In this document: one piece after another, positions 17,101 to 62,416 of the stretch
Position numbering within the stretch: position 1 is the first letter of the stretch
Layout: every line of letters starts with the position of its first letter
Assembly: GCA_964019135.1 (NCBI GenBank)
Contig: OZ025265.1
Span: 20,807,143-20,871,142 of the forward strand
Direction: 5' to 3'
DNA: 64,000 nt
Source of the DNA: Arenicola marina
Lineage: Eukaryota; Annelida; Polychaeta; Arenicolidae
The notes under the pieces: generated by a model
Seen by the model: the letters and a program-made list of their open reading frames with translations, nothing else
Told to the model about the DNA's origin: nothing
The model's database searches: none
Translations under genes and position numbers: made by a program

Positions 17101-20100
17101 AGGGGCTAGGTCCCTTGGCTGGTCATTCATTCATTGGCCACCGGGATGGCTGAGGACTATGGGGTCTAGGGGCTAGGTCCCTTGGCTGGTCGGATGAGAA
17201 GCGCGGTTCATTGTAGTGAAGCGCCTCAGCATTTGAGGTATAATGAACAGTCCATTAATTGAGAAGGCGGGACAATTTTTACTTGTTTCACTCGTGCTAA
17301 TTAGTAACCTAGAATAATATAGAAAGATATCGTAATAAATCGGTGAAATAACGACACAAGATGCCACAGCAACAACCACAACCACAGTCACAGTCACAGT
17401 CACAACCACAGACACATCCACGGCCACAGCCACAGCCACAGCCACAGCCACAGCCACAGCCGCAGCCACAACCAGTCACAGCCACAGGCACATCTCCACC
17501 CACACCCACAGTCACAGCCACAGCCACAGCCACAGCCACAGCCACAGCCACAGCCACAGCCACAGCCACAGTCACAGCCGCAGTCACACCCACACCCACA
17601 AACACGCCCATAGCCACAGCCACAGCCACAGTCACATCCACGAAAAAGAGTTTCAAAATAAGCAAAAAATGCAAGTACGCATATACACATTGTTTACCAA
17701 GTCATCGACTTAATTCTTTGTAGACGCCAAGGTTGGACCGCTGCCCGACGACGATGTCATTGAGGAGGTGAAGGTCGCTCCAGCAGAGAGCAGCAAACCC
17801 GAGGGCGCTGAAGAAGAGGTTGTTACGGTTACCATGGAGACCGTTGCTAAGGAAACTGTCGTAGAGGCTTCCGCAGAGGTTACGGAAGAGACCGTGACCT
17901 TGACTGTGGCCGCCGCTCCTGCCGAGACGGCGCCAGCCGAGAAGGAAGACGTTGTGGATGCCCCGAGTGCGGAACCCCCGGAGGAGGAACCAAAGACGGA
18001 AAAATCTAAGAAAGACAAGAGCAAGAAGGACGCCGAGGAGGAAAAGGAGAAACCGAAGGAAGAAGATACGGTAGAAGAGGACAAGAAAAAGAAGAAGGAT
18101 AAAAAGAAGAAAAAGGACGAGCCTTCGACGGAGGAATCTGCGCAGGAGGAACCAAAAGAGGAGGAGACGAAGAAAGAGAAACCAAAGAAAGAAAAGAAGA
18201 AGAAGGAGGAGCCTTCCACTGATGAATCAGCCAAAGAGGAGCCCAAAGAGGAGCCCAAAGAGGAGCCCAAAGAGGAGCCCAAAGAGGGGCCCAAAGAGGA
18301 GCCCAAAGAGGAGCCCAAAGAGGAGGAAACGAAGAAAGAGAAATCAAAAAAAGATAAGAAGAAGAAGGAAGAACCATCTACTGACGAATCAGCCAAAGAG
18401 GAGCCTAAGGAGGAGGAAACGAAGAAAGATAAGTCGAAGAAAGATAAGAAAAAGAAGAAGGACGAAGAAGTCCCAGTGGAAGAGAAACCACAAGAGGAGG
18501 AAGCAAAAAAACCCAAAAAAGATAAGAAAAAGAAGGACAAGACAAGCGATGAGGAATTATCCCCTGAGGAAGGTGATAAGAAATCGAAGAAAGACAAAAA
18601 GAAGAAGGATGAAGTGAAAGAGGAGGTGACTCCGGAGGAAACTGAACCGAAGAAATCGAAAAAAGTCAAAAAGCAGAAGGAAGGCCAACCAAAGTCGGAT
18701 GAGGCCGTGTCGGAAGAGGCGTCAGACAAAGAGGAGAAGAAAAAGAAAAAGAAAGACAAGAAGAAGAAGGACGAAACCTCGACGGAAGAGTCGGCGCAAG
18801 AGGAGGAACCATCGGAGAAGAAACCAGACTCGGAGCAGAATGGCGACGAGAAGCCTTTGGACGAGGAAGAGATGCCGCAGAGCGATGTGTGTATTGTCGT
18901 GACCCCAGCGGAGGACAAGACCCCGGTCGATTCTGAAGACGAGGGGGAGGTCGCGGTGGTGGTCGAGGAGGTCACCGCGGAGGTCTCCGTCACTGCGGAG
19001 TCTGCAGCCCCCAAGGATGACGTCACCGATGATGCCGGCAAGTTCGAAGTCGTTACAGCGGCGGCCGAGGAGGAAACAAACGTCTCCATCACCTTAACGA
19101 GCTCCGAGGTCGTCGTGGAGTCCCAGGTGGAGACCACATCGGATGTAGCTGAAGAGGAGATAACCATACAGCTGAAGACAACCGAGGAAGCTGGGTCGGC
19201 GTCGGCGAAGGATGCCAAAGACGCCAAATCTGGCAGCGAATCCGAAGAAGAGTCGGAGGAAGAATCGTCTGAGGAGGAGGAGGAAACTAAAGCAGGGACC
19301 GTCGTGCAAGCGGAATCTACGGAGACGGAGAGTCAGGTCATCACCATCTCCGGACAAGCGTCAGCCGTGACGGCCAACGTGACGGCCGAGAGCGAGGCCG
19401 TGACCTTCCAAGCCAAGACGACGACGATGACGGAGGAGACGGTGAAACAGGAAACGGAAGAACCTATGTCTATGGAAGTGTCGCAGGCGCATCCGGACGC
19501 ACCGGAAGTGGTTATGCCGCTGAAGAGCTGCGCGACCAGAGAAGGGGAGGACGCGCTATTCGAGCTCAGACTGAAGAGCTCACAGGAACTCGAAATCACG
19601 TGGTACGTATAGTGGAGTAGAACGCATATCGGATGTCTTGAATGTCATGAACCGATTACGATATCGATGTGTATAATAGAACATGCCCTAACTCGCTCTT
19701 GTGGGCACAACATGCAGCGACCTAAAACACACTAATTAAGTTTCTGTGCGTAAGGTATCAGCATCGGGATGTGGTGGATCACACGAAGAATAATTTAGTT
19801 AGCAGGTTAACCCTTGGGGGCACAAAAGCGGCCTAACACACCCACTCCTTCCATTTGTATAAGGTAAGCACCGGGGAGTGATGGAGCAGGGGAAACTAAT
19901 TCACGATGACTCTTAGCTCATTCACGATGAGTCTTAGCTACAGTAGCGACGCTCCACATTCAAGGTGCCCGTGGACTCATCGCAAGTATACCATGGCGCG
20001 ACTGATTGATTGAGCTGATATGCTTTAATATATTGCAGTTATTATTCTTGTTCATACTATCTATATCTCAAAGGTGTTGATATTACATATGGGACATTGT

Positions 20101-23100
20101 TAAATGTCTATGTGCCGTTGCTACGTACCATAACTATCACCGATTTTTGTTGCATTGATCTAACCTACGTTTTGTACTTATACAATTTGCAGGTTGTTCG
20201 GAGAAACTGAGATCTCCAGCTCTGATCGTTACACGATGTCAGCCAGCGATGGTGTCTACTCCCTGAGAATCTCCTCTGCACAGAAGACGGATGAAGGGAA
20301 TTACGGCTTCCTGGCTAAGAATCAATATGGCAAGATGCGCTTCACTGCAGGACTGCTGGTATTAGGTGAGCGCGACGTCCCAATACGTAAACTGTATCAT
20401 GTCTCGTTGTGGAAGGAACCGCTACTCGGCGTGAGGTGGATTCCATATTGGATGAGTTAGGATTTTGTCCCAGTGTAACCAATTTTTGCGCCTTCTGGTG
20501 CATCCAGTAATCTTCCAGATTTCTGGCGAGTTGATATTGGGCGCACCACGTGTACCATCTCTGGTGCAGCAGTCTGAATCGAAAGACAGTACATAGATGC
20601 AATTGTAGCAAACTCTGTTGATCTCAAATTGGCACGTTCAATCGAAAGACCATATATTACAATATATAGAGGAATGTTAAAAACCTGCACATTCATTTTG
20701 TTATGCGGGAAATAGATAGGCGGGAGTTTAGGCCAGTTGCGCACACACGCAATCTTATGGAAATGAGCGTGGTAACAACCAGACAATACGCGTTGCCCAT
20801 CTCTCGAATGTAATATTATTAAACTTTTTAACGCCTGCAACAATACTAAAGTCAAGCTTTCACCGCAAAAGAAGTTGTACCTGATTCATTCTATTGAAGA
20901 TTAAGAAAAACCTTCCAGAAAGGATACCTAATGTTAGCGAATCGCCTGTTTATCGCTCACTCAGGCGAGGGTGAGACGGTGGTAGAAGACATGGGTGAGG
21001 CCTTGACCTCCCAGGACGAGTCCTCGGGTGCCACCCGCATCACGACCTCGAGGAGGGTGGTGGTGGAGAGGCAGGGTGACGACACAACGGCCCCCGGGGC
21101 CCCAGTGGTGGAGGCCCCCCTAAGGAGCGCCGCAGCCAAGGAGGGAGAGAAGGCCCGCTTCGAGGTGAAGCTCAGGAGCGAGACTGACCTTGAAGTGACG
21201 TGGTGAGTGACCTTGAATGTATATATGTATGAAGCATGGAAAATGGGATTAGTAATTTTTAATTATGGCAGTTGCCGATTTAAATGCTGGTATTATTCAT
21301 TAGAAGGACGCAGTATAGCCAAGAGGACGTTTGACTATTGAAATGTTGTATTGTTAAGAAATAAAATCATCAAATCATACGAGACGGTTAATTATAAGAG
21401 CATATTCTTGATATCGCATCGCTTATTTCTTGAGTAACGTTTTCGACAGCATTATTAAACCTTACACATCTAGTATTTTCCGAAATGATGAATGCCGATG
21501 CGTTATAAATTGTGCAATCACCGACTTGTTTATGAATCTTATCTCGTATATATCGCCGAGTGCTTAGGTTACTTCGCTCCATTTTCTATTTGTCATTTAT
21601 TTTGCACAGAGATCCAATGACCCGATTTGGCCTAAAGGGGGACAAAACATGGTCCAAAACATCAATTTGCTTTACTTCCTTTCAAGTGTCCAATGGGTCT
21701 TGTCATCTTGTCATGTTCTTAAATTTCTTCGTATTTGTGATGCAGGTCTATGGGTGAGACAGTATTGACGTCATCCAAGCACTACAAAATGGACGCCACA
21801 GATGGCGTCTATTCGCTGACAATCATTGGCACTCAGAAGTCTGACGAAGGAAACTACTCGTTCAAGGCCAAGAATGCCGCTGGCGAGCTCCGGTTCACTG
21901 CCAACTTGCTGGTACTCGGTACGTGACGGGCTTATTGATTGGTTGTATAATGACATGGGCGGATCCAGGGTGTCCATGGGGTCCGACCTCCCCCCCCCTT
22001 CTTGATGAAAAATGACGTTTGAGGTGTGGACTCCCCCCAGCCCCCTGGTCGCAAGTTTCAATGACCCCACCCTCCTGGATCCGCCTCTGTATTCAGGTAG
22101 CTTTAACCAATTCTGGCTATATCGCGTCAATGGGGGAAAGAAGGGAAGAGCGGAGTCATGTCTCCGGGGTAAATCCCTACTCTTTTCAAAGAATGTTATG
22201 AGATATTTATCCTGCGACCACAGAGCGGGGCATCAACCCACATAGCTATCCGGGCAGCCCTGAAGGGCTTATTAAATAAGGATATTAATGTTATTAATCT
22301 TACAATGCCCACGCGTCTAATTGTCCGACGAGAAACGAGAAATATTATAAGTTTCATTGAATGGAAATGGTTTCTTATTTGAGTGACGCGCTTACTGGAT
22401 AATGGGAACAATAGTAATATGTTAATTGTCAGATGGCCGTAGTTTGTCACACGAGACAACTTGAATGGCAATAAAAATCTTCTAATTGCGTAAATCATAT
22501 TGTTCATTCAGTAACAGGACACGTTAGGTCCAATCTCAATTCGAAAAATGTGACTTTCTTCGGTACAACATCGTCAAAACGCGTACATCGTGGATGTGTT
22601 CTACGGTTTAAAGTAATAACGCTTGTATTTCATTTAAACCTCATGTCTTTTGATCGTCTTCCACCAGAAATCATACCATCAAACAAGGCTCTTGATCTGA
22701 GCCATGCGTGACCTCTTTCGTTCTACTTGCGACCTAACAATGTAACTTTGGCCGCTGGCGTTTTGGTCTATATAACCCAACGATATTCGTATTTTCGCCC
22801 TCAGGTGAGGGGGAAGAGGTCGTTGAGGAGGAGGACAGCGGTGACCTTTCGACCTCTAAGAGGATCGTGGTCAAGTCAAAACGCCACGTGGCTGCTTCGG
22901 ATGTCCCGCTCGACTCCAAGGTGCCCAAGGTCGTGTTGCCCTTGAAGAGCGTCGCCGCTCGGGAAGGCGAGGAGGCCAGGTTCACGTGCCAACTGACGTC
23001 CGAACTCGAACTCCATGTATCTTGGTAGGCAGAATCGAAATTTAATTGATTGACGTTAATGCTGCAAATGTTTGCTATGTTGTGTATCGCGGTGTATGTT

Positions 23101-32504: not shown

Positions 32505-35500
32505 ATGAAATCATCCATAACGCGTCTAGTTCTACTGTTAATTTTACTATTCATAACAATCTTCAAATTGAATAAGGTGTACAATCAAGTGGACGCGTTA
32601 AGAGGTAAGTTCCAAATAATCTCATAGCAAATGGTAAATTACATTTACTCGATACAAGCGTACAACACGTGAGTCTGGTCACAATAGGTGTCTGGTGATC
32701 CAGGTTTTTTGCAGTGCCTGATATGTCCGAATACGTTAGAACGAAATGTTCCGTTTGACCACACAGCTCAATGTTTTTTATTCTACTATATTTATGGAAG
32801 ATCGAACTTTGTAATGGATGACGGATTAGGTGCAAAATGTCAAAAATGTGTGTTTTTTTTCTTAGAGTTGACTAACCAAGAAACGTAAGACACTTCGTCA
32901 TTAGGTTATGTAAGTTAATTGATTCATTTATCAGCAGCTATGCTATTGTACTTGTATTAGCCTCTGATGTATTTCAAGCCATATCTACTTGTATGTTATC
33001 TATGTCGAATGCTACAAACCAAGTTTGTTAAAACACGAATTTGTTGACGTGTTATTTTTGAGTAAATATTACATTGCGGACCTTCAAAATGACCTCCATA
33101 CTCACAATTGTGTCTCATATGGCACTACCTATATGCATATATGCCACCCAAATGACCCATTTTTCGTTTTTTTCTCTCAATCCCGGCAGCAGCAATCAAC
33201 ACTTTGTCTTGAAGTGCCCACCTGAGACTGAAGTGTTTTTTTCTTCAAAATTGCAGTTCTTGGCCATATATTACAGTTGATGTCAGAATTGTTCAAACTA
33301 AAATTGCAGCTCTTGACTGTATATTCCAGTTTATATCTAAAAAAATACATAAAAGCCAAGAACTAATCTCCAGATACTTTGCAATGATTGTCAGTGTCTA
33401 TTTTTGATGGCTTCTTAAACCAAAAATTCGTTCTCAATGACCACACAATCTTCAAATGTTCTCGCGCTCTCCAAGTTTGTAGGTGGACATAGATTTAGAG
33501 TGTACCTGCTTTACAAAACAATGCCGTCAAGTTTTTGCATACAAGTGTGTGCAAATACACTGAGAACCTAAATACATCATTTTCATTCAGACTATTTTGA
33601 AAGTTTCACAGGGAACATATTGCTGCATGAGTAACTTTAACTTACAGTACATGTTTCAGTGAACTTACAGAATAGCACCACATCGACTGACGGCCGAGAA
33701 CGCTACAATGGAGAATCCACCGCACAGCACTCGCAAGATGTTAATCATGCAAGTGGCCCCGATTCGCTTTTGATTGAGGTAAGGCCAATGTCAATTGGAC
33801 TTTACAACAACATATTAAATAATAAGCCTAATAAATAATAATAGGTAGATTACTTAATCATCTGTTTCTCTGTATTTGATTATAAGCTCAACCATTAGCG
33901 CCCACAACCATGCCTATTCATATTATTATTCCTGTTATGCCGATACAAGAACAAACATATTTGTTTTAATGGAAACTAAATTGTTTTTCAAGATACTCCC
34001 CTGTGCAAAAATTGCTGTAAGACCAGCTTTAAGAATATCGACTACTCTGGTACAGCTCAAATTGAGCAATTGAGCTGATACAGCTAAAATTGAGCAATTT
34101 AGGCTTATGTATCTTAAAGGGGGTTTAATTTCACAATTGGAAAGCAGGCAGTTCCTATGCAAATTCCTGACACATAAGAACGGCGGTTGGGTAAATTAAT
34201 TAGCAAAATTTACATAATATACCCTTAGGAGAGTAAATATAGCAATCTGGTTATTTTTACACAAGTGTGGCACATTTTCTCAGTCAGGACATCTGAACAA
34301 ACTCGGGCATCAACTCTAAACGATCAAAACCAATTTGACGCCAAGTGACGTAGGTTCCGGTTTAATTGTCAGGCTGGTGAAGGGTATTTGTGGACATTCA
34401 GATGAATTGCCATTTTTGAGAAAGGATGTGACCAGTAGGTGTTCGTAGTGTTGAATTCATAGTAGGAGGAATACTTTTTCAGCCTGCGATGTTTTTTAAC
34501 TGAATTTTTTACCCCCCCCCCCGCCAAATAGCATGACTGCCCGTCCCATGCCCACAAGGCATCAGCTCCTCACGCCTATCACTTGAACCAAAATGAGCCA
34601 TTTCGTGGGCTATATCATTTAAGATGGACAAAAATGTTAATTTAGAAATTTCGTTGGTTTTTGTTATTTCCGTTCAGGAGACATCTGTGCCTCTGTCGTA
34701 CCGCCCTCCTCCCCAGTCCCGCGTCACGACACCCGGTAAGGCGATGAACGTCAGCACAACGCTACTGCGCAGGCTCGAGATTCCGCCAACGAGGTTCAAG
34801 ACACTGACGTCACAGAACGTCCGAGACCACGTGTTTGTGACCGCCGCCAGCAGTAACCACTTCAACGAGAGTCGGGACTGCGTGGCCGGGATTCAGCAGT
34901 TCTTTTCCGGTCGGCAAATACTCTACTTTGACATCGGGCTGACGGAGGAACAACGCAACGAGGTTAAACATAGTTTGATATCAGATCGCAAAGAAACTAA
35001 ATTGATCGTTTGAACGACTGCCACTTATATCCCCATGATGGTTCAGACCGGTCGGAAGGACGCTGAAACTAACCGTGTGCATGTCTGAATATTCTTTTCC
35101 CTCTCAATAATAATAATAATAATAATAATAATAAGTTTATTGCCAAAAGAACACACAAATTACATTCATTTAGTACATCTTTACAATACATTTATAGTGG
35201 CAAGAGCAGAAGCCAAAGGCTTATTCGCTCGTATATGGTGAACGTGGTTAGAGTTGAAATTGATTTGCCAGCAAGCTAACAAAGAAAGAAAGCGAGAAGA
35301 GAACAGTCAAAAGTAAATAATTAAATAAATAAACATAAAAGTATAGGAGCCATTGAATGTTGATTAACGTCTAGCACAGCTAGCCACAGTGAAAAAAAAA
35401 AAAAAAAAAAAAAAAATGTAAAGGCAACAGACTATTCAACAGTTACCGTGTTTAATATAATGCGTTTAACTTCTTTATTAAACATGTATTTTGACGTGCA

Positions 35501-38500
35501 AAAATTTACCTTTCTAAGCCATTTATTAAATATCCTGGGACCCGTGGTTCTTATTCCCTTCTCAGATAAAGTAGTCTTTGGTTTATGTACCCGCAGATGA
35601 GTAGACGCCCTTGTATTGTAACTGTGTACTTGCGACGTTGGAGTAAATATATCAGCGATAGTCCTGGGAATTGTACCTTGGTAGTAATTATACATAGTTA
35701 TAACTATTTTATATTCATTTAGATAAACAATTGGTAACAAATTATACTTTAAGAAGAGTGGTTTTGTGTGTGAAAGCCTTGGTACCGATATTATTCTAAT
35801 GGCTCTTTTCTGCAACGTAATGAGAGGTTTTAAATATTTATGACATGTACCGCCCCAAACTTCGTTGGCATAGTCAAGGTAAGGGTAAGTAAAGCTGGAG
35901 TACAAGGTGCGTAGGGTGTCGCTGTTTAACAGCTTTCTTGCTTTTACCAAAATACCTACTCCCCGAGCAACCTTTCCCTTAATATATTGGATATGTTCAT
36001 TCCATGTTAAATTAGCATCTAGTTGAACTCCTAAGAATTTCAGACTTGATACTTGCATAATTGTCTCTCCTGCAAGCCTAACCTCAGGACAATGATGAAG
36101 TTTCTTTTTGGCAGACCTAAATACCATATACTTTGTCTTTTTAATGTTTAAGGTTAATTTATTTTACCGCAGCCAGTACCTTACTTTATCCATCTCGTTA
36201 TTAAGCGTCAGGATCATTTGATCGATATTTTTACCCGATATGAAAAAACTGGCATCATCAGCAAATAATATACCAAATAATAAGGAGCTGACATTTGTGA
36301 GATCATTAATGTAGATCAAAAAGAGAAGCGGCCCTAATACAGAACCTTGTGGAACCCCGTCTGCAATTTTAGAGGTAGACGAGTTAATGTTATTATATTC
36401 GACATATTGTTTACGTTCGTAATAATAGCTTCTGAACCAGTTTAATGATATACCTCTGACTCCAAATTTTTCCAATTTTAAAAGCAGGATGTCATGATTA
36501 ACAGTATCAAAAGCTTTTGACAAGTCCAGAAATAATCCTATGGTGTAGTCTCATTCGTCGATAGCAGTAGAAATTTTATCTACAAGGAGAATAAGGGCCA
36601 GCGACGTGGAATGATTTGACCTGAATCCAAATTGGTGTTCATACAGCAAGTTGTATTTATTAATAAAGTTGATAAGCCTATTATACATTAATCTTTCAAA
36701 TATCTTTGAAAGCGTTGAGAGGACTGATACTGGACGATAATTGCTAAACAGTTTATCGTCACCATTTTTAAAAACAGGAATTACCTTTGCGATTTTTAGC
36801 TCATCTGGAAAAACTCCCTGGCTGAAGGAGAGATTTATTATGTGTGTGAGCGGGCTCTTAAGCGTATGCAAGGCCGATTTTATTACTTTAGCCGAGATTA
36901 ACCATCCATACCATACAGGTCGTGATTACTCTCTGTAAACCATGTTTCTGTCAAAGCACATACCGGAAAATTATACGATAATGTTTCGAGATAAGACTTA
37001 AAATGTGCAAAATTCTTTTGTGCGCTTCTGATATTCATGTGCATCACGGAAAATGCCGCGTCATTAATATCACCATCTGCTATTAGCTTATTAAATCCGT
37101 CTTCTAGATAATAGTCACAGTTTGCATATGGTTGCATAATTTCGTGATAAAAGTTCATATCCGGATCAATATCATCCAAGGGCAGTCGGTGTTGGAATTC
37201 AATTCAAAAGGATTAAAAAGCAGTTGTTCCAGTACATCTAATGGTATTGAGCAACTATTCCAACTGCCTTCAGTAATAGCCATCATGAATTCGTTATCGT
37301 TCACAATATCATTAAAAGGAAACATCTCTGACGTACATTTCACACAATACCAGGTCTCATGGGACGTTATGCTGTTTGGGCGACTTTTGGTAATGCCACT
37401 TAAACAATTAGCGTGAAACGTTTTCTTACAGATGACACATTCAATTTGATACGCATGCTTCAAGATCTTTTTCTTGCATACAGGACACTGTGGCTTATAT
37501 AACATTATCTGCCATAATGACTCTTCCCCTCGAAAAACTCACAGCCCCAACGTATATTACAGAAACAAAAGCAGAAACAGAAACAACGGACTTCACGAAC
37601 TAACATAAATCAATCAATTACCCGATTGAGCTGAGCTGGTGGTCTATCAGCTCGCTTACAGCAACAACTGTATTGTGTTAACCATATGCACACGTGACAC
37701 TCAATGCCCCTTCCAATCGTAGAGTAGGTCAAACTAAACTCACTAAGAACTGCGGTCCTATGTCTAGTTTGTAAGTGAACAGGTACAACTCGATATAACA
37801 GGTCATGACGTGTCAATGCCCATTTCCGTCATTGCGGTAAACGTTTTAGTTTGCATAAATAAACAAAGACATGCATCAACTCATTTACTCTAGTACTGGC
37901 CTGCATACCCAATAAGTTCACTTGGATCTAAGCTGTTTTCTGTTGCAATTTACAAGACCGAGATTAAACTCCGACTCAATAACACCATTGGTGACACCAT
38001 TCACAGTTAGGGGGTCAAGGAGTTGAAGGGCCAAGACAGGGAGACCTGGTAGGTTAGGTCCATGACATCCACCCTCACATTTTAAAAGATTACGTGCGCA
38101 GGACATACTGCAGCCGGGGACTTCATGGCCTGGTGGCGTCACGTATCATAGTCAGGCTGAGCATTACCGGAGCAGTTAACAGAGGGGTTCGATACACAAC
38201 CGAATTGTTAAAACTAATAGACAGACACAAATTCATGGTCCCAGTGAAGGAGTTGGTTTTCCATCAAAATAACACGTAGCCACATTCCACATGCCCAGTG
38301 TGAGCAGATTAAAATTAGCTGCACTCGCTACGCCACCCCTCATGATTGCAACGACTAATTAGGGAAGGCCCTGTCAATATGAGCAGTTACTGAACGCTGC
38401 TGCTAACAGGCACTGCGGCCTAATAGACAATCATACGTTTAGATATAACATATCCATATTATACACATCTTCTCGGCGTTTATATCACATACAGCAAGAC

Positions 38501-43184: not shown

Positions 43185-44660
43185 TGTACTCATCAAAATG
43201 GCTTCTTGTGTACTCATTAACATGTCTTCTTGTGCACTCAACATGTCTTTTTGTATACTCAACAGCATGTCTTCTTGTTTACTCATCAATATATCTTCTT
43301 GTGGAATCACCAACATGTCTTTTTGTATACTCATAAACACGTCTTCTCGTGTACTCATCAAAATGGCTTCTTGTGTACTCATCAAAATGTCTTCTTGTGT
43401 ACCCATCAAAATGGCTTATTGTGTACTCATCAAAATGTCTTCTTGTGTACTCATCAAAATGTGTTTTTTAGTGTATTAATAAGAATATCTTCTTGTGTAC
43501 TCATCAATGTGTCTTCTTGTGTACTCATCAAAATGGCTTCTTGTGTACTCATCAAAATGGCTTCTTATGTACTCATCAAAATGGCTTCTTGTGTACTCAT
43601 TAACATGTCTGCTTGTGTACTCAACATGCCTTCTTGTACACTCAACATGTCTTCTTGTATACTCATCAGCATGTCTTCTTGTTTACTCATCAATATATCT
43701 TCGTGTGGCCTCACCAACATGTCTTCTTGTATACTCATCAACACGTCTTCTTGTGTACTCATCAAAATGGCTTCTTGTGTACTCATCAAAATGTCTTCTT
43801 GTGTACCCATCAAAATGGCTTATTGTGTACTCATCAAGATGTCTTCTTGTGTAATCATCAAAATGTGTTTTTTAGTGTATTAATAAGAATGTCTTCTTTT
43901 GTACTCATCAATGTGTCTTCTTGTGTACTCATCAAAATGGCTTCTTTTGTACTCATCAAAATGGCTTCTTGTGTACTCATTAACATGTCTTCTTGTGTAC
44001 TCAACATACCTTCTTGTATACTCAACATGTCTTCTTGTATACTCATCATCATGACTTCTTGTTTACTCATCAATATGTCTTTTTGTGGCCTCACCAAAAT
44101 GTCTTCTTGTGTACTCATCAACATGTCTTCTTGTGTACTCATCAAAATTTCTTCTTGTGTACTCATCAAAATGGCTTCTTGTGTACTCATCAAATTGGCC
44201 TTCTTGTGTTCTCATCAACATGTCTTCTTGTATACTCATCAGCATGTCTTCTTGTTTACTCATCAATATATCTTCTTGTGGCCTCATCAACATGTCTTCT
44301 TGTATACTCATCAACACGTCTTCTTATGTACTCATCAAAATGGCTTCTTGTGTACTCATCAAAATGTCTTTTTGTGTACTCATCAAAATGTGTTTTTTAG
44401 TATATTAATAAGAATATTTTCTTGTGTACTCATCAATGTGTCTTCTTGTATACTCATCAAAATGGCTTCTTGTGTACTCATCAAATGGCTTCTTTTGTAC
44501 TCATCAAAATGACTTCTTGTGTACTCATCAACATGTCTTCTTGTGTACTCAACATGCCTTCTTGAATACTCAACATGTCTTCTTGTATACTCATCATCAT
44601 GACTTCTTGTGGCCTCATCAAAATATCTACGTGTGTACTCATCAACATGTCTTGGCGTCA
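43185..44660. repeat. 24-bp minisatellite with higher-order structure
   Basis: About 60 units of ATCAAAATGGCTTCTTGTGTACTC and variants. Because 24 is a multiple of 3, long open frames arise on both strands (Ser-Cys-Val-Leu-Ile-type on plus, Thr-Gln-Glu-Asp-type on minus). A variant block with TGTGTTTTTTAGT and TATTAATAAGAAT recurs at about 43458, 43861 and 44390, showing multi-unit duplication. Confidence 0.95.
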
Positions 44661-50815: not shown

Positions 50816-50817
50816 TC

Positions 50818-50848
50818 CCCTTATGAAAAAACACCATGGTATACCATG
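50818..50848 (+). repeat. Left terminal inverted repeat
   Basis: CCCTTATGAAAAAACACC followed by ATGGTATACCATG. It pairs with 62384-62414. Confidence 0.85.
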
Positions 50849-51485
50849 CTAAATTACCATGGTATACCATGGTGTTTTGAAACAGGTATACCATGGTATA
50901 CCATGGTGACTTACCATGGTATACCATGGTAGTCATGGTATACCATGGTGTTTTGAAACAGGTATACCATGGTATCTTACCATGGTATACCATGTTAAAT
51001 TACCATGGTATACCATGGTGTTTTGAAACAGGTATACCATGGTAAATTTACCATGATATACCATGGTAAATCACCATGATATACCATGGTAAATCACCAT
51101 GATATACCATGGTAAATCACCATGATATACCATGGTAAATCACCATGATATACCATGGTAAATCACCATGATATACCATGGTAAATCACCATGATATACC
51201 ATGGTAAATCACCATGATATACCATGGTAAATCACCATGATATACCATGGAAAATCACCATGATATACCATGGTAAATCACCATGATATACCAGGGTAAA
51301 TCACCATGATATACCATGGTAAATCACCATGATATACGATGGTAAATTACCATGGTTAATTACCATGACATCCCATGGTAAATTACCTACCATGGTAAAT
51401 CACCATGCTATACCATGATAAATTACTATGCTGGAACATAGTAAATTCACAATGCTGTACCATGGTAATTTACCATGGTTTATTA
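50835..51485. repeat. Left subterminal palindrome array
   Basis: Many copies of the palindrome ACCATGGTATACCATGGT, some separated by GTGTTTTGAAACAGG, followed by about twelve 23-bp units (AAATCACCATGATATACCATGGT) at 51053-51345 and decaying units to about 51485. Confidence 0.95.
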
Positions 51486-51656
51486 CGATAGTAAATTGTC
51501 ACGTTTTAACGTTAGTAATTTGATCATTAGCGTGGCAGCCGGTGTCTATCGATGCACTATGAATATGCGTCATAACCAATTACATCAGTTGCAGTAATAG
51601 TTATGCGCTTAAAAATGATAGAACAGGTACAACAGGAATAGTACATATTTTAATTG

Positions 51657-51662
51657 TTTATT
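51657..51662 (-). terminator. Possible poly(A) signal of the BEN gene
   Basis: AATAAA on the minus strand, about 490 nt after the stop codon; other signals closer by cannot be excluded. Confidence 0.3.
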
Positions 51663-51869
51663 CATATATTGCAATTCCTTACCAGTTTATATGCACCACA
51701 CGTACAGATCCGCTTATCAGAAATAGCTTACATTTGCAAACATTATTAAAGATAAAAACAATCTATCAAATACAATATGTACACTACAAATAATTCAAAG
51801 TTTCGAACGAAGTTAAACCATCGTTCGTAGCTTTAATATCTACATATAACCTGAAGCATAGATCTATTT

Positions 51870-51978
51870 GGTAAAACTATCACAAAAAATCTGCAGTCTT
51901 AATCTGGCTATATGGTAAAAACTATCACAAAAAATCTGCAGTCTTAATCTGGCTATATGGTAAAAACTATGACAAAAC
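51870..51978. repeat. 46-bp direct repeat, 2.3 copies
   Basis: GGTAAAACTATCACAAAAAA and TCTGCAGTCTTAATCTGGCT, then ATAT, occur twice in near-identical form plus the start of a third. It lies 3' of the BEN gene. Confidence 0.9.
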
Positions 51979-52147
51979 ACACATTCTTGTATAAATCGCG
52001 CTCAAACTGAATGTAATTGAAAAAAACAACACCCCAAATCAATCTATCGAATATACATATGTAGACATACAAACAATTCAAATTTCAAACCCGAACTTGA
52101 ATCAAATTTTATAACTCAAGTTGTGATAATTTATACAGCTATCTGCC

Positions 52148-55100
52148 CTACGCTTTAGATGGTTCCTCCTCCACTACTTGACGTTTACTAATCGTCTTGG
52201 TAACGTTGCTTAGCTTTTCCCTCATGTACGTGCGCACATCTTTGTCCTCCTTGGCCGGGAATTGACGACGCACGTGATCTGCAACGATACAACCAGTTGT
52301 GAAATTGAGTATAACAGGAACTTTATACTGGACATCGGACACATATTAATTAATAAATTAAAAAGTACACTTTATTTTATGTACGTATCATGCAATAATA
52401 CTGAAGTGGGCTGCATGCTTCGTCTTTAAGATATACATAAGCTTATTCGTAGTTTAGTAAACTAAGTTTAGCTTGCTCCCACATATACAGCCAGCCAAAC
52501 CGACGCCTTAAACTCACGGAACTCACGATAACAACGGGTCAAGCATACATACCTATTATGCTTATAATCTTGTTTCTGGGGAGTGCTGGCTTGGCAGGAG
52601 TTCTCTTGTTTGAGACGGACCCTGTAACCGAATGGTTACACATATCCTTTGTTGTGAAGACGGCCTCCATTAAATCATTGGTCATCTTCCTGGCATCAGC
52701 GTAGTTGGACCGCGCAACAGCATGTTCTGGCAGAGTGTACTGGAAAAAACATATAAAAAATGTTAAATTTAGTTTTATTGCTTGCTTCATAGTATTGAAT
52801 TGTGGCACTGTTGCCCAACGCCAAAAGTTCTAGTGACTTACCCTATTGAAATACACGGGAAAACGTGCCAAGATAGGCTTTAAAAGAGAATGAATGCTCA
52901 CACGTACTATTTCTGCATGGAGCTGTATGGTCTTTGCACTATTTACACCGTCATTATCCCGTAGCTTATGCCTATATAGCGCAGGCGCGTTAACGGTGCA
53001 TGAAGTGTTGCCCTATAGTGAATGCAGTAGTGACTGAGACTGCACATGCATTTCTATCGCATCGAAGTATGCTCAATAGGGCAGGTTGAAAAACAACAAA
53101 ATCGCGGGACAACATTGCTCGATTTCGAGAGGAAATCGCATACAACTCTGTGACACCATGCAGGCAAATAAATAAGACAGTTCCCCGTTTATATGTTACA
53201 TTCCTTAACACCTAATGCCCATCAAACAGATATCTATTTACACAAATTTGAGTGCAGGGATCGGCATCGTTGTATTGAACAAGGCTACCTACGGGATGGA
53301 GCTACATAAAACTCTATTACGCATGAATAATCTTACAGATTTTCACTTACTACTTTGGTTTCATCGGCTCCACTTAATAATGTCAACTGGTTCTCTGGTT
53401 CCATGAGTGGTACTGAAGACCTGCCAGCCTTAGATGAGGACAGCTTCAGGGTGTTGGGCGACAGACGTTGGACGGGTAGAGGTCTGTCTTGTCGTGGCGT
53501 TCCTTCATACAACTCCTCTCTCATGTCCTGTAGGAGGGCCTCGAGATGACCTACTCGGACTGTAATCAGAAAACAGATATTAAGTGACAGTTGTTTGCAT
53601 TAAATATGCTTGGTTGTACGTAGCTGTAATTAGCTGTGCACCGTCACAGTGATTACGAATATAGATTTAATTAAATGTCTGAAACTTATATTTAATTATT
53701 AAGCAGTTATAAACAGCAGTTACACCATGCGCATGACTAAGCCATACATACTTAATTGCACAATGACTCTAGTTATATCCCTTAATAAAGTCAGACTAAT
53801 TAGACACCTTTGAGATCTTTGACCTCTTGCTTGTAACTCCTCCACTCTGTTGGGCTTGGACTTATGACAACAGGTTGTGTTATGTCATCATCATCACTCA
53901 TCTGTTGAGGCAAATAAATTAGTAATTTGAAACACATCATTTGTCATTTTCATGAACATTTATAGTTCTTTAAAGAGGCTATGGGTGCCATTTAAAATGA
54001 GTTTGAAAGTATTTCACATATATTTTCGGACAGTAACAAATAATAGAACTGTTTAGGTGTCCGGTGTAATGAATATTACATAACTAAAATTACACATTTT
54101 ACTGTTCATTATAATATTGCATGCTTAGTATCTTCTTATCAATAGCAAGATAACAGTATGCTGTTTAACTGCATTGATTATTTAAGTATGCTCATGTAGA
54201 CCTTTTCCTTCAGAGCATGCAGTAGTGCTTCTGATTTGTTTTTCATGCTAGCTGCCTTGCTGGAATCTTTTGCTTTTTTTGACATCTTCTGTGGAACAAT
54301 CTGCAAAATATAAGATACACTCATGAAGGTAATTACCACAGTGGTTATAGTATAATAATACTGTCTAATAACATGCACATCATACCATTTTTAAAATAAA
54401 ATCTCATGCTATTTCTGTACCTATACATTTGGCCATTTTCGTTTCATGTTCATATAACTTTATTTTGGTTAACTTGCACTAATGTCAAATAGTTATGCAA
54501 TGAAAGTATACATTTGGCAATAAATTGCAATCATGTCTCAGCCTGCAAAGAAAATATAGACTTCCTGCAATTTTTCAGTGAACACCTTCCAACTTTATAA
54601 CAGTCTCCTGTACGTTTAAATAGATTCTACATATTGTCATGGCACACATACAAAATAAAGGATATAAGAGACTCTTTAATTGAAATAATAGCAATTAATT
54701 CAAAAGTATATAGACTATAAGCATACTTCACTATCACTGTCACTATCACATAGTTCCAGTTCTTTCTTCTTCTTCGGTATGCGGTGTCCCCTTCCCCGTG
54801 CTGGTGACTTTATAGCTTCTGTGACGTCTCCACTTTCCAAGTACCTCCTAAGTACCTCTCGCAGATGCTTCTGATCATCTGAAGAAATAACTTTTATTGT
54901 ACATTCAAACCAGTGCAATTGGGTTAGTCTATATATCAGACACACATTTCTACTATTTGATCAATAAAATATATCTCTGATATAAATACACGATATTTAT
55001 ATATATATACAGAAACATTTCTACTATTTTACCAATAAAAGAGTAAATGATTAAATAGTAATGATATTTATTCTTACACAAATTTGTCCCCAGGTAAAAT

Positions 55101-56287
55101 ATATTATATGAAAAAATGAAATATACAGATTGCTGGTGCAGGGACAATTTTTTGCTAACATGGTGAGGGAGTTGTTATCTAATTCAGCTTATACATAATT
55201 ATACTTCAATGTGGGCCATATACTGCCATGTTATGCAATATGAAGGCTAACTTGATAATTAAATATATACATGTTTTAATTACACAATTAAGTTAACATT
55301 TATAATATATAATTCCACTTCGCAGGGATGGATTTAAGCCTAATGATTTTGGAGTAAATGAAAGATAAATAAGCAGCCTTTTTGCATATTCATTCAAGTT
55401 GTATTTCCTGTTCACTACATTACAACATTAATAAGATTAGATCTATATTGACAATAGATATATTAAGTATACCCACAAATGTATATCAACATTTTGGTCT
55501 ACATTGAAATTTACTCACATAGATCTCCACATTTAGCAATATCTTAATTACTTTAAAGCAGGATTTTTATTTACTGGAAAATATATATTTGTATTCATAG
55601 CATATAACTTAACTATACTAGCCTATACCCAACAACTAATAGGATAATTCTGATGTTATTAAAATTTAAGCCTTTTTTTTAGCTAAAATAATTGGTGCAT
55701 AGATAGATAGATGTTTATTTAATATAGTGACATGGTACGTTGTAGAGGTCATATGGCAAACTGGTTTTTTATCATGTATGGGGTATGTTATTAGGTCATA
55801 CCTTGTGGCCTCTTTTTACCCTTTAATATATTATAATTAAGAACTTAACACATCTAGATCCAACTTATTTCTCATACTAAACAGCTAAAGACATAAAGTG
55901 AATACTCACACATTGAGACAATAAATAAGTAAATCATTGGAGGTAAAAAAAATGCTGTATGAATTGAATATGAGTAGACTCTATGAGCAACTTTAAGCTT
56001 AGCCTACCTGTCCTTGGTCCTTTAAATTAATTTATGTATTGAGACATAAATTAAAATAGATTGATAAGAGGTTCAATTATTTTCAACTCACCACTGAAGT
56101 GCAGAACCTTCGCAACAACCTTCCTTGCCGGCCTGCTGTTAGATATTGGCCACTGGACCACAACTTCTGTTTCCATGCGGAAATCCTGATCGTTGCAATT
56201 CTCTACGTCCACGCCTTCTATCCAGACAGATTCACCTATTTCAGTGGCCCCATCTTCATTTACAAAATCGAATAAAGCGTACTTCAT
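52148..56287 (-). CDS. BEN-domain protein encoded by the transposon, 7 exons, 355 aa
   Basis: Minus-strand exons in order: 56287-56092, 54878-54727, 54300-54202, 53901-53808, 53559-53351, 52739-52553 and 52278-52148. They join in frame to 356 codons including TAG. The start is the ATG giving MKYALFDFVNEDGATEIGES. Residues 1-66 resemble the N-terminal module of BEN-containing proteins (acidic, with VVVQWP). A basic/Ser/Asp linker (RGHRIPKKKKELELCDSDSD) and Lys-rich stretch follow. About residues 168-196 predict a coiled coil (YKQEVKDLKVRVGHLEALLQ). A BEN domain lies at about 240-325: ARKMTNDLMEAVFTTKDMCN, HSVTGSVSNKRTPAKPALPR, then NKIISIIGDHVRRQFPAK. BEN domains bind DNA. One donor (AAG|GTCTAC, exon 3) is weak. 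It is read divergently from the transposase, 398 bp apart. Confidence 0.85.
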
Positions 56288-56685
56288 CTTGTTAACGGTA
56301 GCGATTGAAAAATCTAAATTATGATATAGGCTAGGTACGTCGATCAGGAGCTGCCGAAGATTCAACTGTAACTGAATCCGAGGCAGCTAGCACAGGCGGG
56401 AAACGGCAAAGGATCCTACTTCCGTTTCCGATACTAAAATCAGGAACGCATGCGGAAAGGAGAAGGAACGATAATTGTCAGAATTTTTGATAGTCGCTTA
56501 CATACTCAACTGTAATGTGGCGATAAATTAATTTAAGCATTCTGATCAATGTAAAATGTATGTTGATTGTCAATACGTCATATAACAATGAAGCTATCTT
56601 GTAACATTGACGATGCCACTGGCGCAAAGCAAAGTGTTGGTGTTTTACTTTTAGTATATGCCAACTCGATCCCGAAGCGCTGAAT
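56288..56685. promoter_or_regulatory. Bidirectional promoter region of the transposon gene pair
   Basis: 398 bp separate the two opposed start codons. No clear TATA box was found on either side. The central position suggests shared regulation. Confidence 0.5.
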
Positions 56686-59600
56686 ATGGCGACTAACAAA
56701 AATGTTCGTCAAAGATATAAAAGGTATTTACGTGACCCAGAAATCAATATACCAAGAGCAACAAAGTGGAGAAGGACACGGCAAGACAATGGAAGCGAAG
56801 GGATACAGTTAACCTCTCAGTTTCATAGTGATTCTGGCAGTGGGTCGGAATCAGATGGTGATGTGTCCTCGAACTCCAATTCTGATCTTGCCGAAAAGAG
56901 CGAACACTTCGAAGGATTAGAAGCTGGAAATGATTTCAACAATGAGGTTTGTAGCACTACTTTGATTATAGTCAATCAAAATTGATAACCTGGTGAATTT
57001 AGTGTTTCAACCAAGAATATAACATTTTTTAACTTGTTAAGCTTAGATCTACCTACAACGTGTTTATAACTAGGCCTAAGTTCTTACTTAATTTACCGGT
57101 AAGTAAAAGACTATAGGCTACCCTACCTACAAGTCAACTATTGTCAATTGATACACTGTTTTTCCAGAATTTTATATTTTTCTCACCATTTGAACAGTAT
57201 TACATCCAGTCTGTTTAGTCTACCGAGCACAATAATATAAAATATAGTTTTAGTAAAATTTGTTTCTAGAGGATTCTTGATTGTATAGATTTATGTGATG
57301 TTAACAACACTGAAAAATAGAAATAAGCATGATGACTATAGATCTATATATTATTTTTACATTAGATCTATTTTATTCTATAAATAGATCTATATGCCTA
57401 CCAAATATATAACAAATATAGATATGTAGATCTCTTATCAATTTGTTTTGGCAGCTAATGCATCATTTAAAAAGTATATTATTATATATTACTAAATAAA
57501 AAATAAAATATATACAATGCATTGTTACCATGCAAGGAAATGAATCTATATAAGTGATTGTATATTGAGCAGGAGGCATAGCTGTAGACATCCTTATATA
57601 TGAGGGATATTATAATTATTCTGTTTAAAACTTTTTCATCAATGGTGCCATGACAATATTGGCTACCTATATGTTCGGATTAATCTATTTGAAAAAAAAA
57701 TGTTAGTGGCGCTTGATATCATAAAACAGCTTTTTCTCTGTTTGAATTGGTATCTTCTTGTTATTCACATGGGGATTGTCATCAAATTTTAATAGTTCCC
57801 TAGTAATTAAGAGTGCCTTGGTTTTCATTGACTAGATAATTATATACCTGTAGTCATGTTGCCCCTATTTAGCTCTCTGTAGGTCACTGATATTTGGTAC
57901 TTCATCATATATAATTAAGGCTGAGTCATGTTAATTTAATGTTACCAACTTGAAGTTACAATTTTACATGAAAAACAGATTTTTTTGACTGAAAATGATG
58001 TAAGCTCATATATTGTTAGCATTAAATATGTTAAATATACACATGTAGGTATACAATAAATAATGTGACATTTCCAACTTTATTTAGCCAAGTTGGTGCA
58101 TCTTGGGTGGGAGGAAGTGAACATGGCTTAACTTCCCCTATATATGGTCTTCAATATTTAGACATTTCTTACTGTTTATCTCTGCATGTTAAATATTGCT
58201 TTCATTAAATTTTGACTGTAAAATCACAGAAATACATACAAAACAGCAAAATCTATAAATTATTTATGTTTATTGAGTTTAATTACCCAATCATTGTATT
58301 GAGTTTCTTTTGTACTCTAGTTTTACCGGTATGTTGAAATATTTTAAATAATGTTTTATTTACAAGTATTGGACATACATATTGTAGTGATCTTTTTATG
58401 AGGTATAACTCTTATTTTGTAGGTATCGATGTTTTAGCTAGGGTTATAAATGGATATACTTCGAGATTATACTAACATTTATTTTCTTTTTTATTTCTAG
58501 GTATTACATGAGCATCCTGGTTGTGAGAACCATTTGACAGAAGCCATCCTTGATGACCATTCCATATACGAGGGTTCATCTGTTACTAGAGGCCAAGCAC
58601 TCGGACTTGCTATTGCTTATGCCTTGAGGAATAACATTGCTGGAGTTGCACTGGCTGGTCTTTTGGATCTAGTCAACACGTTAGTACCTGGGAGTCTACC
58701 TAAAACAAAATACTACATAGAAAAACTATTGTACTCTCAGGCTGACCAAGTTCAGTATGACTTCTACTGCTCAAATTGTCAGTGCCTATTTGGCCCAGCC
58801 CCGCAACATGAATCTTGCCCAGACTGTGCCACTTTGTTCAGAAAGGAGGATGCTTTAAAAGAAGGAAGCTACATCTTGCGCATGCCACTAGCCAACCAGA
58901 TCAAGTCTCTTTTCGAAGACCACGGCATTTCCGATATCATTCTCAAAGACCGACATTCCAGTCGAGAGGTCATCAAAGACATATATGATGGAAAATGTTA
59001 TCAGCAGGCGGAAGTGCAAGCCTTTTTGCAGAATTCTGACAACATTTCGATGACATTCAACACAGATGGAGTCCCAGTGTTCTCATCATCAAATTTTTGT
59101 ATTTGGCCAGTACTCTGTACAATCAATGAGCTTCCACGATCCAAGAGACGTGACTACGTGTTAGTGCACTCTTTATGGTTTGGCAAACACAAACCAAGGA
59201 TGGACACTTTGATGCAGCCTTTCGTCGATGAAATGTGCTCTTTGAAAGATGAAGGAGTTCAATGGGAACGGAACAATGAGTTGCACACAACAAAATGTAT
59301 CGCATTGGTTTGTGCATGTGACTCTGTAGCTCGGTGTGCAGTTCAGAACGTCAAACAGTTCAATGGCGAATATGGTTGTTCCTTTTGCCTGCACCCAGGA
59401 CAGGTTATTTGTAAAGGCAGAGGATATACCCGAGTATATCCGGCTGATATTTGCATGGAGCAAAGGTCCCATGCTCAAAACTTACGTCATGCAGAAGAAG
59501 CTGTAACATCTGGTGATGCCGTCTTTGGTGTAAAGGGGCCATGCATCCTGTATCAGCTTCCCTACTTCGATGTCATTAAAGGCTTCTCACCAGATTACAT

Positions 59601-60777
59601 GCATTCAGCATTGTTGGGTGTGTCGAGGCAGTTCGTCAACGTATGGCTGGATACAGGAAACAATGGGGAACCATACTATCTAGGGCCTGAAGTAGCTCGA
59701 CTTGACGACAAACTCTCGGCAATTCGACCCCCAAGCGAAGTGACACGCTTGCCACGTTCCTTGCTAGAGAGGAAGTTCTGGAAGGCCAACGAATGGCGGG
59801 CTTTTCTCTTGCTGTATTCGCCAGTTATTCTGCAACATGTCTTGCCACTGCGCTATTTCCGCCACTGGATGTTATTCAGTGTTGCCATTAGCGTTTTCTT
59901 GTCCAGTGAAATCAGCCGTCGAGATATCCACATGGCTCATGTTTGCCTTGTGAAGTTTGTGTCTGAGATTTCAGCATTGTATGGAATAGAACATGTTTCA
60001 TATAACTGTCACTTGATGGTCCATCTGGCAGATAGTGTGAAAAACTGGGGCCCTTTATGGGCAACTTCTTGCTTTGTGTTTGAGGATACAGCTGGAAGGC
60101 TGTTATCCTACTTCCATGGAACACAACATGTGTCGATACAAATGTTCAAGAGATACTTAGCAAAGAGGACTCTAGTGCGGTTCCATGAATCGTTTGTAGA
60201 TGCAGCCGAACATGTTACCGAAACATTTCAAAGAATGAGTGACACAATCGTCAAACGAAGCAAGTGCATCAAGATTTCGGAAGATTGTTCTGCCTTCACC
60301 GAAAATCTTGAACGCCCTACAGCAACAGATGCGCTCGCAATTGAGGCCACTTTGGGTAGGCCTGTTCTAAATAGAAGTTGCATGACTGTACACAGATTCT
60401 TGAAGGATAGTGTTCTGTTCACAAGCTCGGAATACTCCGCAAAATTTAAACGAAATAATTCGTTCGTCCTTCTTGCGTGTGGCAACTTTGGTACCATTAA
60501 GAAAATGGTTCGAATTAGACTGAGCTGCACTTGTGATTTAGCCCACTGTGACTGTGATGTTACAACTTTCATTATCGTAGAGAAAATGACCAAACTGCCA
60601 CTCGGACAAATGCATGATGGTGATGCTCAAACTGATTTACTTCAGTTTAGAAAACCGATCCATGAAAGTCAAGAACATGTGGCGTGCCTTTTGAATGCTA
60701 CATTAACCAAAGTCTGTGTCTGTGAGGCAGCAGGTTCCAAGTATGCAATTCCTTTGCCTGTGTTTGAGTTTGATTAA
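56686..60777 (+). CDS. EnSpm/CACTA-like transposase, 2 exons, 845 aa
   Basis: Exon 1 (56686-56946) and exon 2 (58501-60777) join in phase 0 over a 1.55-kb intron (GAG|GTTTGT ... TTTCTAG|GTA). The N-terminus is basic (VRQRYKRYLRDPEINIPRAT) and then Ser/Asp-rich. A helical region (YEGSSVTRGQALGLAIAYAL) precedes a CxxC...CxxC finger (about 177-196). Next comes the core: FNTDGVPVFSS and IWPVLCTINELP (about 273-298), LWFGKHKP, CACDSVARCAVQNVKQFNGE with GCSFCLHPG (about 359-387), FSPDYMHSALLGV (about 449-461), CHLMVHLADSVKNWGPLW and FEDTAGRL (about 588-620). This order matches animal EnSpm/CACTA (Transposase_21/DUF4218-like) proteins. Aspartates 276, 361 and 452 are candidate catalytic residues (inference). 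It is intact. Confidence 0.85.
56947..58500. other. Intron of the transposase gene
   Basis: 1.55 kb of AT-rich sequence with no coding character, ending in a good pyrimidine tract (TTTCTTTTTTATTTCTAG). Confidence 0.8.
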
Positions 60778-61820
60778 TGAAAGGTGTGGATGATGCATTT
60801 AGGACAAAATGGGTGGTTCTTTTACACCAAAACGATATGCATGTTGCATATAGTTTAGAATTACTTTAGTCATTGCATGTGTAAATACTTAAGGCAAGAA
60901 TAGCATGTCCTGCTTGCATCAAAAGTCTATATATGTCACTGCATATATGAAATTAAATTTATATAAGAGCACTTACGTCTGGTTTATTACATGAAGATTA
61001 AATACATGTACTGTTGTGCTATAAACTGAGAGAATTTGTAACCTGTTAACCCTAAGAAGTACCACACAGGATCATGGTCATATTTGTTGACTGTAGAATC
61101 AGTATGATTCTGTTATTACTGTGGTACAATTAATTGTTGAAATAAGATTCTTTTATGTTCACTTTTGTGGTAGCTTTTCACTGTGATATGTATCTTCAAT
61201 AATACTCAATGATGACAGACTTGAAATCGCAGTTGTGTTATTTTCTTGTGTGGCTAATTTTAATCACTTTGTATGCATATATTTTAGTAAGGTGTAAAGC
61301 TGTAGCATGTACAAATTTGCTAGCAAAACAACACCACAAAATTATTCACTACTCACAAAGAATGCCTTTACGGAATAAAGACCAGGTTCCTCATAGACCA
61401 TTCCAGATGCCCCTGACAACATCTATGATCCTGTTAGAAAACCGCTTTCAATGCGTTTGCTATGGTTTATGTTCTTTTTCAGGGCTAGCTAGGTTAGCTG
61501 TATATGGCATATTCACAGAACAAACACAACAGATTTCTCTATAAACTTTCCTTTTAGTATTATATTATAAAATGGAATCACAGATGTTTTTTCACCCTGT
61601 TAACTTACCATAAACTGTTGGAACTTATGCAACTATAGGTCTTCACTTACCTTATGCGTGCTATGCAGTGCAGCTAGAGCCAGCTATCGAGTTACCTGAC
61701 ATATGCACCTGCCAGAATTACCCCTGATCATCGTCATGATCAACATATTGCCAAAACCATGCCACAGAATAATATCGTGATAATTATACATTTGTGGCCA
61801 TATATAATCAGTAAAAGGAA
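60778..61820. other. 3' region of the transposase gene
   Basis: No further gene is seen. AATAAA occurs within GGAATAAAGACC near 61374 as one possible poly(A) signal. The stretch leads into the right palindrome array. Confidence 0.5.
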
Positions 61821-61825
61821 CAGTA

Positions 61826-62400
61826 TGTATACCATGGTATACTTTAAGGATGTATGACATGCATGATACACACAGGGTAGCATCAGGGCATATATCATGG
61901 TTTATCATGATATACCATGGTTTATAATTGTATACCATGGTACCTCCATGGTAGGCTTGAGTTGCCATGATTTTCATATTAAATACCATGGCAGAATGTG
62001 CTATATATCATGGTTTACCATGTTATACCAAGGTTTATCATAGCATACCATGGTATACCATGATATTCCATACCCTACCATACATGTACCATGGTATACC
62101 ATGATATTCCATACCCTACCATACATGTACCATGGTATACCATGATATTCCATACCATGCCATACATCTACCATGGTATATCATGGTAGGGTAGGGTATA
62201 TCATGATATACCATGGTACATGTATGGTAGTATATGAAATATCATGGTATACCATGATATATCATGGTATACCATGGTATATCATGGTACATGCATGGTA
62301 GGGTATTGTATATCAAGGTATACCATGATATATCATGATATACCATGATATACCATGGTATACCATGGTATACCATGATATACCATGGTATATTATGGTG
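61826..62400. repeat. Right subterminal palindrome array
   Basis: Dense TACCATGGTATACCATGATAT-type units, with variants such as ACATGTACCATGGTATACC, related to the left array in motif but not in unit order. Confidence 0.93.
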
Positions 62401-62414
62401 TTTTTTCGTAAGGG
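62384..62414 (-). repeat. Right terminal inverted repeat
   Basis: It ends GGTGTTTTTTCGTAAGGG, the inverse of the left end with one change in the first 20 positions. Confidence 0.85.
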
Positions 62415-62416
62415 TC

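Follow-up and report, generated by a model that had tools for sequence, protein, structure and literature searches.

Does an 11.6-kb stretch of annelid DNA with matching inverted ends represent a single mobile element, and what would the second gene enclosed by those ends contribute to it? The question was raised by a locus of Arenicola marina (assembly GCA_964019135.1, contig OZ025265.1), which was analyzed within a window of 64,000 nucleotides, meaning the whole stretch from position 20,807,143 to 20,871,142 of the forward strand; all coordinates below are those of the window. The intact-looking region at 50818..62414 is probably a single cut-and-paste transposon of the animal CACTA kind (EnSpm, TRC group) that appears complete and autonomous and carries two divergent genes, one for an 845-amino-acid (aa) transposase and one for a protein with a BEN domain that is predicted to bind the ends of the element. 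The unbroken state of both genes fits an element that may be recent or still active.

The outer boundaries of the element are formed by the following features.

50818..50848, plus strand: left terminal inverted repeat, starting CCCTTATGAAAAAACACCAT, identical to the right end at 28/31 positions
62384..62414, minus strand: right terminal inverted repeat, its minus strand starting CCCTTACGAAAAAACACCAT, identical to the left end at 28/31 positions
50816..50817, no strand: TC outside the left end, a candidate for one copy of a 2-bp target duplication (flank read)
62415..62416, no strand: TC outside the right end, a candidate for the other copy (flank read)

Matching inverted ends had been proposed for this region in an initial annotation, and the comparison of 50818-50848 with the reverse complement of 62384-62414 confirmed them, with 19 of the outermost 20 bp being identical. 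None of 15,000 controls came up to this 19/20 match: base shuffling gave at most 16 in 5000 trials, first-order Markov resampling at most 17 in 5000, and a set of 5000 paired 120-bp segments taken 11.6 kb apart within the window at most 16. A weaker test based on the outer 15 bp was equalled in 1 of 200 shuffles. When the outermost 22 bp at the left were searched with up to three mismatches, the only two sites in the window were the two ends themselves (shuffle mean 0.00, n=100). Hence, no second copy of the element was found in the 64-kb window with this pattern, and the flanks and the joined empty site likewise matched only themselves. The TC dinucleotide suggested earlier as a target duplication was indeed present outside both ends. 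It fits a 2-bp duplication, but as a single case it is weak alone, because two dinucleotides agree by chance with a probability of about 1/16.

The ends read CCCTTA, which corresponds neither to CACTA nor to the CA..TG that terminates CACTA elements "in most cases" (PMC12730594), and their first three bases are CCC. Such ends had been taken as the sign of a distinct lineage. That part of the initial annotation was not supported, and the ends were rejected as a novelty, as CCC tips with 2-bp flanking repeats have been published for the animal CACTA (TRC) elements of Schistosoma, Aedes, and Tribolium (DeMarco et al. 2006, PMC1636069), and CCC ends with 2-bp duplications for Spongebob in Hydra (PMC4298943). 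Because its ends are CCC, the Arenicola element was assigned to the TRC group and not to the canonical CACTA elements.

The transposase is encoded on the plus strand.

56686..56946, plus strand: transposase exon 1, 87 aa (splice model)
58501..60777, plus strand: transposase exon 2, 758 aa and stop, with Transposase_21 and a RAG1-like predicted core (profile match, predicted fold)
59065..59067, plus strand: codon of the first catalytic D, D276 of 845 (alignment)
59320..59322, plus strand: codon of the second catalytic D, D361 (alignment)
60082..60084, plus strand: codon of the catalytic E, E615 (alignment)
60289..60774, plus strand: C-terminal domain of the transposase with a predicted BAH-like fold (structure prediction)

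The uninterrupted 845-aa translation was reproduced from the two exons, which are joined at GT-AG sites and contain no internal stop. The Transposase_21 family was matched by this protein at 38.4 bits (cutoff 28.6) and by 28 of 31 aligned members at E <= 0.01. All 31 aligned sequences kept the DDE triad unchanged and, between its second D and its E, the motifs C(2)C and H(3)H as well; a D, D, E set that encloses C(2)C and H(3-4)H in this position is described as a feature of CACTA/EnSpm (CMC/CMCT) transposases (PMC12730594). The EnSpm/CACTA-like character noted initially was thus borne out, and by profile and motifs the protein is a tnp2/CACTA (EnSpm) enzyme. A sequence comparison of the transposase with the PDB gave no chain at E <= 1. 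Its catalytic core was predicted to adopt a RAG1/Transib-like fold, with identities of 9-13% among the structural matches listed. The order of domains is Transposase_21, a weak DUF4218, and the C-terminal domain, whose predicted structure showed the BAH fold among the structural matches listed, which may leave out other known folds that fit it. No BAH profile appeared among the 25 families listed, of 27 that matched the 31 transposase members at E <= 10. The BAH-like C-terminus may contact chromatin.

Among relatives of the transposase, fish proteins P0020-P0026 and P0029 (912-1008 aa) were 36-37% identical to it over 97-99% of its length. They showed an extra match to PF25787, and two of them had further matches, which we take to be helix-turn-helix. 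These proteins are possibly fused or host-adopted CACTA transposases.

The second gene lies on the minus strand, divergent to the transposase.

56092..56287, minus strand: BEN gene exon 1, with the ATG at 56287 (splice model)
54727..54878, minus strand: exon 2 (splice model)
54202..54300, minus strand: exon 3, the least certain, with a weak donor GTCTAC (splice model)
53808..53901, minus strand: exon 4 (splice model)
53351..53559, minus strand: exon 5 (splice model)
52553..52739, minus strand: exon 6, N-terminal part of the BEN domain (splice model, Pfam BEN)
52148..52278, minus strand: exon 7, remainder of the BEN domain, including its recognition helix, followed by the stop codon (splice model, Pfam BEN)
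56288..56685, no strand: 398-bp gap separating the divergent start codons, presumably a shared promoter region (gene models)

A second intact gene had also been reported initially, and it was recovered here as seven exons that join in phase into a 355-aa protein with no internal stop, while the other two sense frames contained 24 and 27 stops. The GC content was 0.39-0.52 in the exons and 0.28-0.40 in the introns. The product of the gene had not been named in the initial annotation. The Pfam BEN domain matched aa 268-342 at 47.9 bits (cutoff 23.2), and the closest solved structure by sequence was BEND6, at 49.7 bits.

Also beyond the initial annotation were dense arrays of CATG palindromes inside both ends.

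50818..51490, no strand: left subterminal CATG palindrome array, with 48 CATG, 29 of them CCATGG, and including a 23-bp tandem unit (counts)
61831..62414, no strand: right subterminal CATG palindrome array, with 40 CATG, 14 of them CCATGG (counts)

Within limits that were set by our own choice, the density of CATG was 71 per kb in the left array (48 in 673 bp) and 69 per kb in the right array (40 in 584 bp). Elsewhere it was 6.9 per kb in the interior (71 in 10,340 bp), and the two flanks had 4.7 and 5.7 per kb. In spacing, 20 of the 47 gaps in the left array were 10 bp and 18 were 13 bp, and 18 of the 39 gaps in the right array were 10 bp. The tandem units of the two arrays are unlike each other and CCATGG dominates in both, so the feature shared by the two ends is the palindrome, mostly CCATGG, of which a single copy was found between the arrays (51561-61820). 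Each end of the element coincides exactly with the outer edge of its array. Subterminal repeat arrays of the kind expected of CACTA/EnSpm elements are therefore present. Separately, a perfect 45-bp tandem duplication was observed at 51873-51962, between the left array and the BEN gene.

A link between the BEN protein and these arrays is suggested by studied BEN domains. The BEN domain of NACC1 selected ACATGT, and changes in the CATG core lowered its binding (PMC7764960, PMC11472053). In helix 5 of NACC1, Asp462 contacts C and A, Thr465 contacts A, Arg469 contacts G, and Asn466 contacts the backbone, while the base contacts R254, N261, and K265 of BEND6 were probed by mutation (PMC10206803). 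Taking the BEND6 numbering from its construct and contact residues (PMC10206803) and aligning BEND6 with the BEN domain of the element, Asp462, Thr465, Asn466, and Arg469 of NACC1 were mapped without gaps to Q258, N261, N262, and K265 of BEND6 and to E333, S336, N337, and K340 of the element. The resulting set of an acidic residue, a hydroxyl residue, Asn, and a basic residue is chemically similar to NACC1 at the mapped positions.

In maize Spm, TNPA binds the subterminal repeats and TNPD is the transposase, with both being required, and the TNPA-like proteins of different elements have little sequence in common (PMC2613891). Given the CATG arrays at the ends, the binding of CATG by the NACC1 BEN domain, and the similar mapped residues, the BEN protein probably grips the palindrome-filled ends and is probably, by analogy, the animal counterpart of maize TNPA. 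The simplest reading would equate the BEN protein with TNPA and the 845-aa protein with TNPD.

Several observations weigh against this reading. We set the offset of NACC1 against BEND6 ourselves, on the assumption that the helix is ungapped. Among the base contacts of BEND6 probed by mutation, only K265 is kept (R254, N261, and K265 correspond to T329, S336, and K340), along with N262, and the BEND6 structure was crystallized on CGCG DNA. The targets of BEN domains vary, and BANP and BEND3 take CGCG. Owing to this offset, the lost BEND6 contacts, and the varied targets, the recognition of CATG by the BEN protein of the element is a prediction only. In addition, ACATGT is rare in the arrays (0 and 3 copies), where CCATGG dominates, and the CATG copies in a tandem array cannot be counted as independent events. 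The model of the BEN gene includes the weak donor of exon 3, and a coiled coil considered at aa 176-197 was downgraded, as its heptad-like run was equalled in 47 of 500 shuffled proteins. Finally, the element is known from one copy, and when the whole BEN protein of 355 aa was compared with 4626 candidates, none proved a relative at E <= 10, so the pairing of BEN with the transposase may not recur.

As a mechanism, the BEN protein would bind the CATG palindromes at both ends in the way that the NACC1 BEN domain binds CATG, perhaps as an oligomer, and it would pair the ends or regulate the promoter. The RAG1-like transposase would cut at the CCCTTA ends and insert the element, resulting in the 2-bp duplication. 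In its full form, the model is a two-protein animal CACTA system, in which BEN coats palindromes that are often 10 bp, or about one helical turn, apart and assembles both ends for a RAG1-like transposase with a BAH-type chromatin reader of its own, while the BEN proteins of such elements are a source or sink of animal BEN transcription factors. We advance this combination tentatively, as a possibility that falls somewhat short of an even chance.

Two alternatives that accept the transposon as real were considered. The BEN gene may have been captured by this one copy from the host, or from another element, without a role in transposition. In favor of capture, only one copy is known, the protein had no relative among the 4626 candidates, BEN matches among 120 relatives of the transposase were weak (best E 0.051), and the gene is rich in introns, like a host gene. 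Nevertheless, it is unbroken, divergent, and only 398 bp from the transposase, and both end arrays hold the tetranucleotide bound by a studied BEN domain, which makes capture unlikely. Similarly doubtful is a second alternative, in which the transposase itself, or no protein at all, binds the arrays and BEN acts elsewhere, for example on the divergent promoter or on host chromatin. In its favor, replication slippage can spread tandem arrays, the units differ between the two arrays, the 398-bp intergenic region holds no CCATGG cluster, and TNPA also regulates its own promoter (PMC1636069, PMC2613891); yet one palindrome dominates at both ends despite the different units and is rare between them. 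That the ends and the two genes were put together long ago from part of a transposon and neighboring sequence, or are a dead relic, is very improbable, as the lack of a known second copy or a proven empty site and the weakness of TC/TC as a duplication are set against an end match unreached in any control, ends lying exactly at the array edges, and two genes free of internal stops.

If the two-protein reading is true, BEN matched to CATG arrays would be an animal counterpart of the second DNA-binding protein of CACTA elements, of which we know no identified example, and its binding prediction can be tested in vitro. A family of proteins that regulate transcription in animals would also be linked to mobile DNA, with the BEN proteins of elements serving as a source or sink of transcription factors, as for other transposon proteins turned regulators. 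The PHD finger of RAG2 reads chromatin, and it would have a parallel in a BAH-like domain carried by a transposase of the RAG1 type. Among the literature matches listed, no report joined a BEN domain with a CACTA or EnSpm element, in a search that had preprints, most subscription papers, and Repbase outside its scope, and an earlier description of the pairing in these sources is possible; "BAH domain" with CACTA was likewise absent among the matches listed. Relatives carrying both genes were not found in a viral contig collection, where single-protein and end-pattern searches gave 0 matches and an alignment search gave 26 pattern matches with 0 confirmed, or in a genome contig collection, where an alignment search gave 32 pattern matches with 0 confirmed. 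This absence says little, because the collections are viral and prokaryotic.

The rest of the window included several other features. Upstream of the transposon, scattered immunoglobulin-type exons were found on the plus strand at 7995-8273, 20164-20457, and 20898-21203, of which only 20164-20457 exceeded the I-set cutoff (38.6 bits); they probably belong to a large titin-like animal host gene. A 68-bp tandem array at 15028-17191 contained about 32 copies with a 95% match, as well as periods of 338 and 473 bp, and a Lys/Glu-rich open frame of 632 residues at 17714-19609 (plus strand) had no Pfam match at E <= 0.01. Pieces of a non-LTR retrotransposon occurred on the minus strand at 35435-37538, with an RVT_1 reverse transcriptase at 36167-36550 (E 1.5e-20) and, in the same stretch, a PHD-finger open reading frame at 37158-37538 whose 24.0 bits were right at the cutoff. 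A 24-bp tandem repeat at 43185-44653 (about 62 copies) left several frames open on both strands. No Rfam family was found at the gathering score across the whole window.

The components of the element can be compared with known systems. BEND6 and NACC1 share with the Arenicola protein the BEN domain and the Asn and basic residue of the recognition helix, while the latter differs in being encoded by a transposon, in having a predicted target, and in lacking R254 and N261 of BEND6. RAG1, BbRAGL, and Transib have the catalytic core fold predicted for the element and the C(2)C and H(3)H motifs; they differ in other ends and in an identity of 9-13% in the structural alignments listed, and no RAG2-like gene was seen in the element. 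The TRC group, including SmTRC1, the Aedes and Tribolium elements, and Spongebob/EnSpm-4N1_HM, has the same CCC tips, and its 2-bp flanking duplication agrees with the possible TC duplication here (PMC1636069, PMC4298943); SmTRC1 also combines a Transposase_21 protein with a tandem-repeat region (PMC1636069). However, SmTRC1 is about 4.5 kb, compared to 11.6 kb here, and the excerpts available of the TRC descriptions name neither a BEN gene nor CATG arrays. Maize En/Spm and soybean Tgmt* likewise combine subterminal repeats with a tnp2 transposase and a second protein that binds DNA (PMC2613891), and the ORF1 domains of plant CACTA elements (TAD, Transposase_21, DUF4218, and DUF4216) resemble the series of Transposase_21, weak DUF4218, and C-terminal domain in the element (PMC8978399). 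The ends of these plant elements are CACTA in place of CCCTTA, and while maize TNPA arises by alternative splicing, the BEN protein of the Arenicola element is encoded by a divergent gene of its own.
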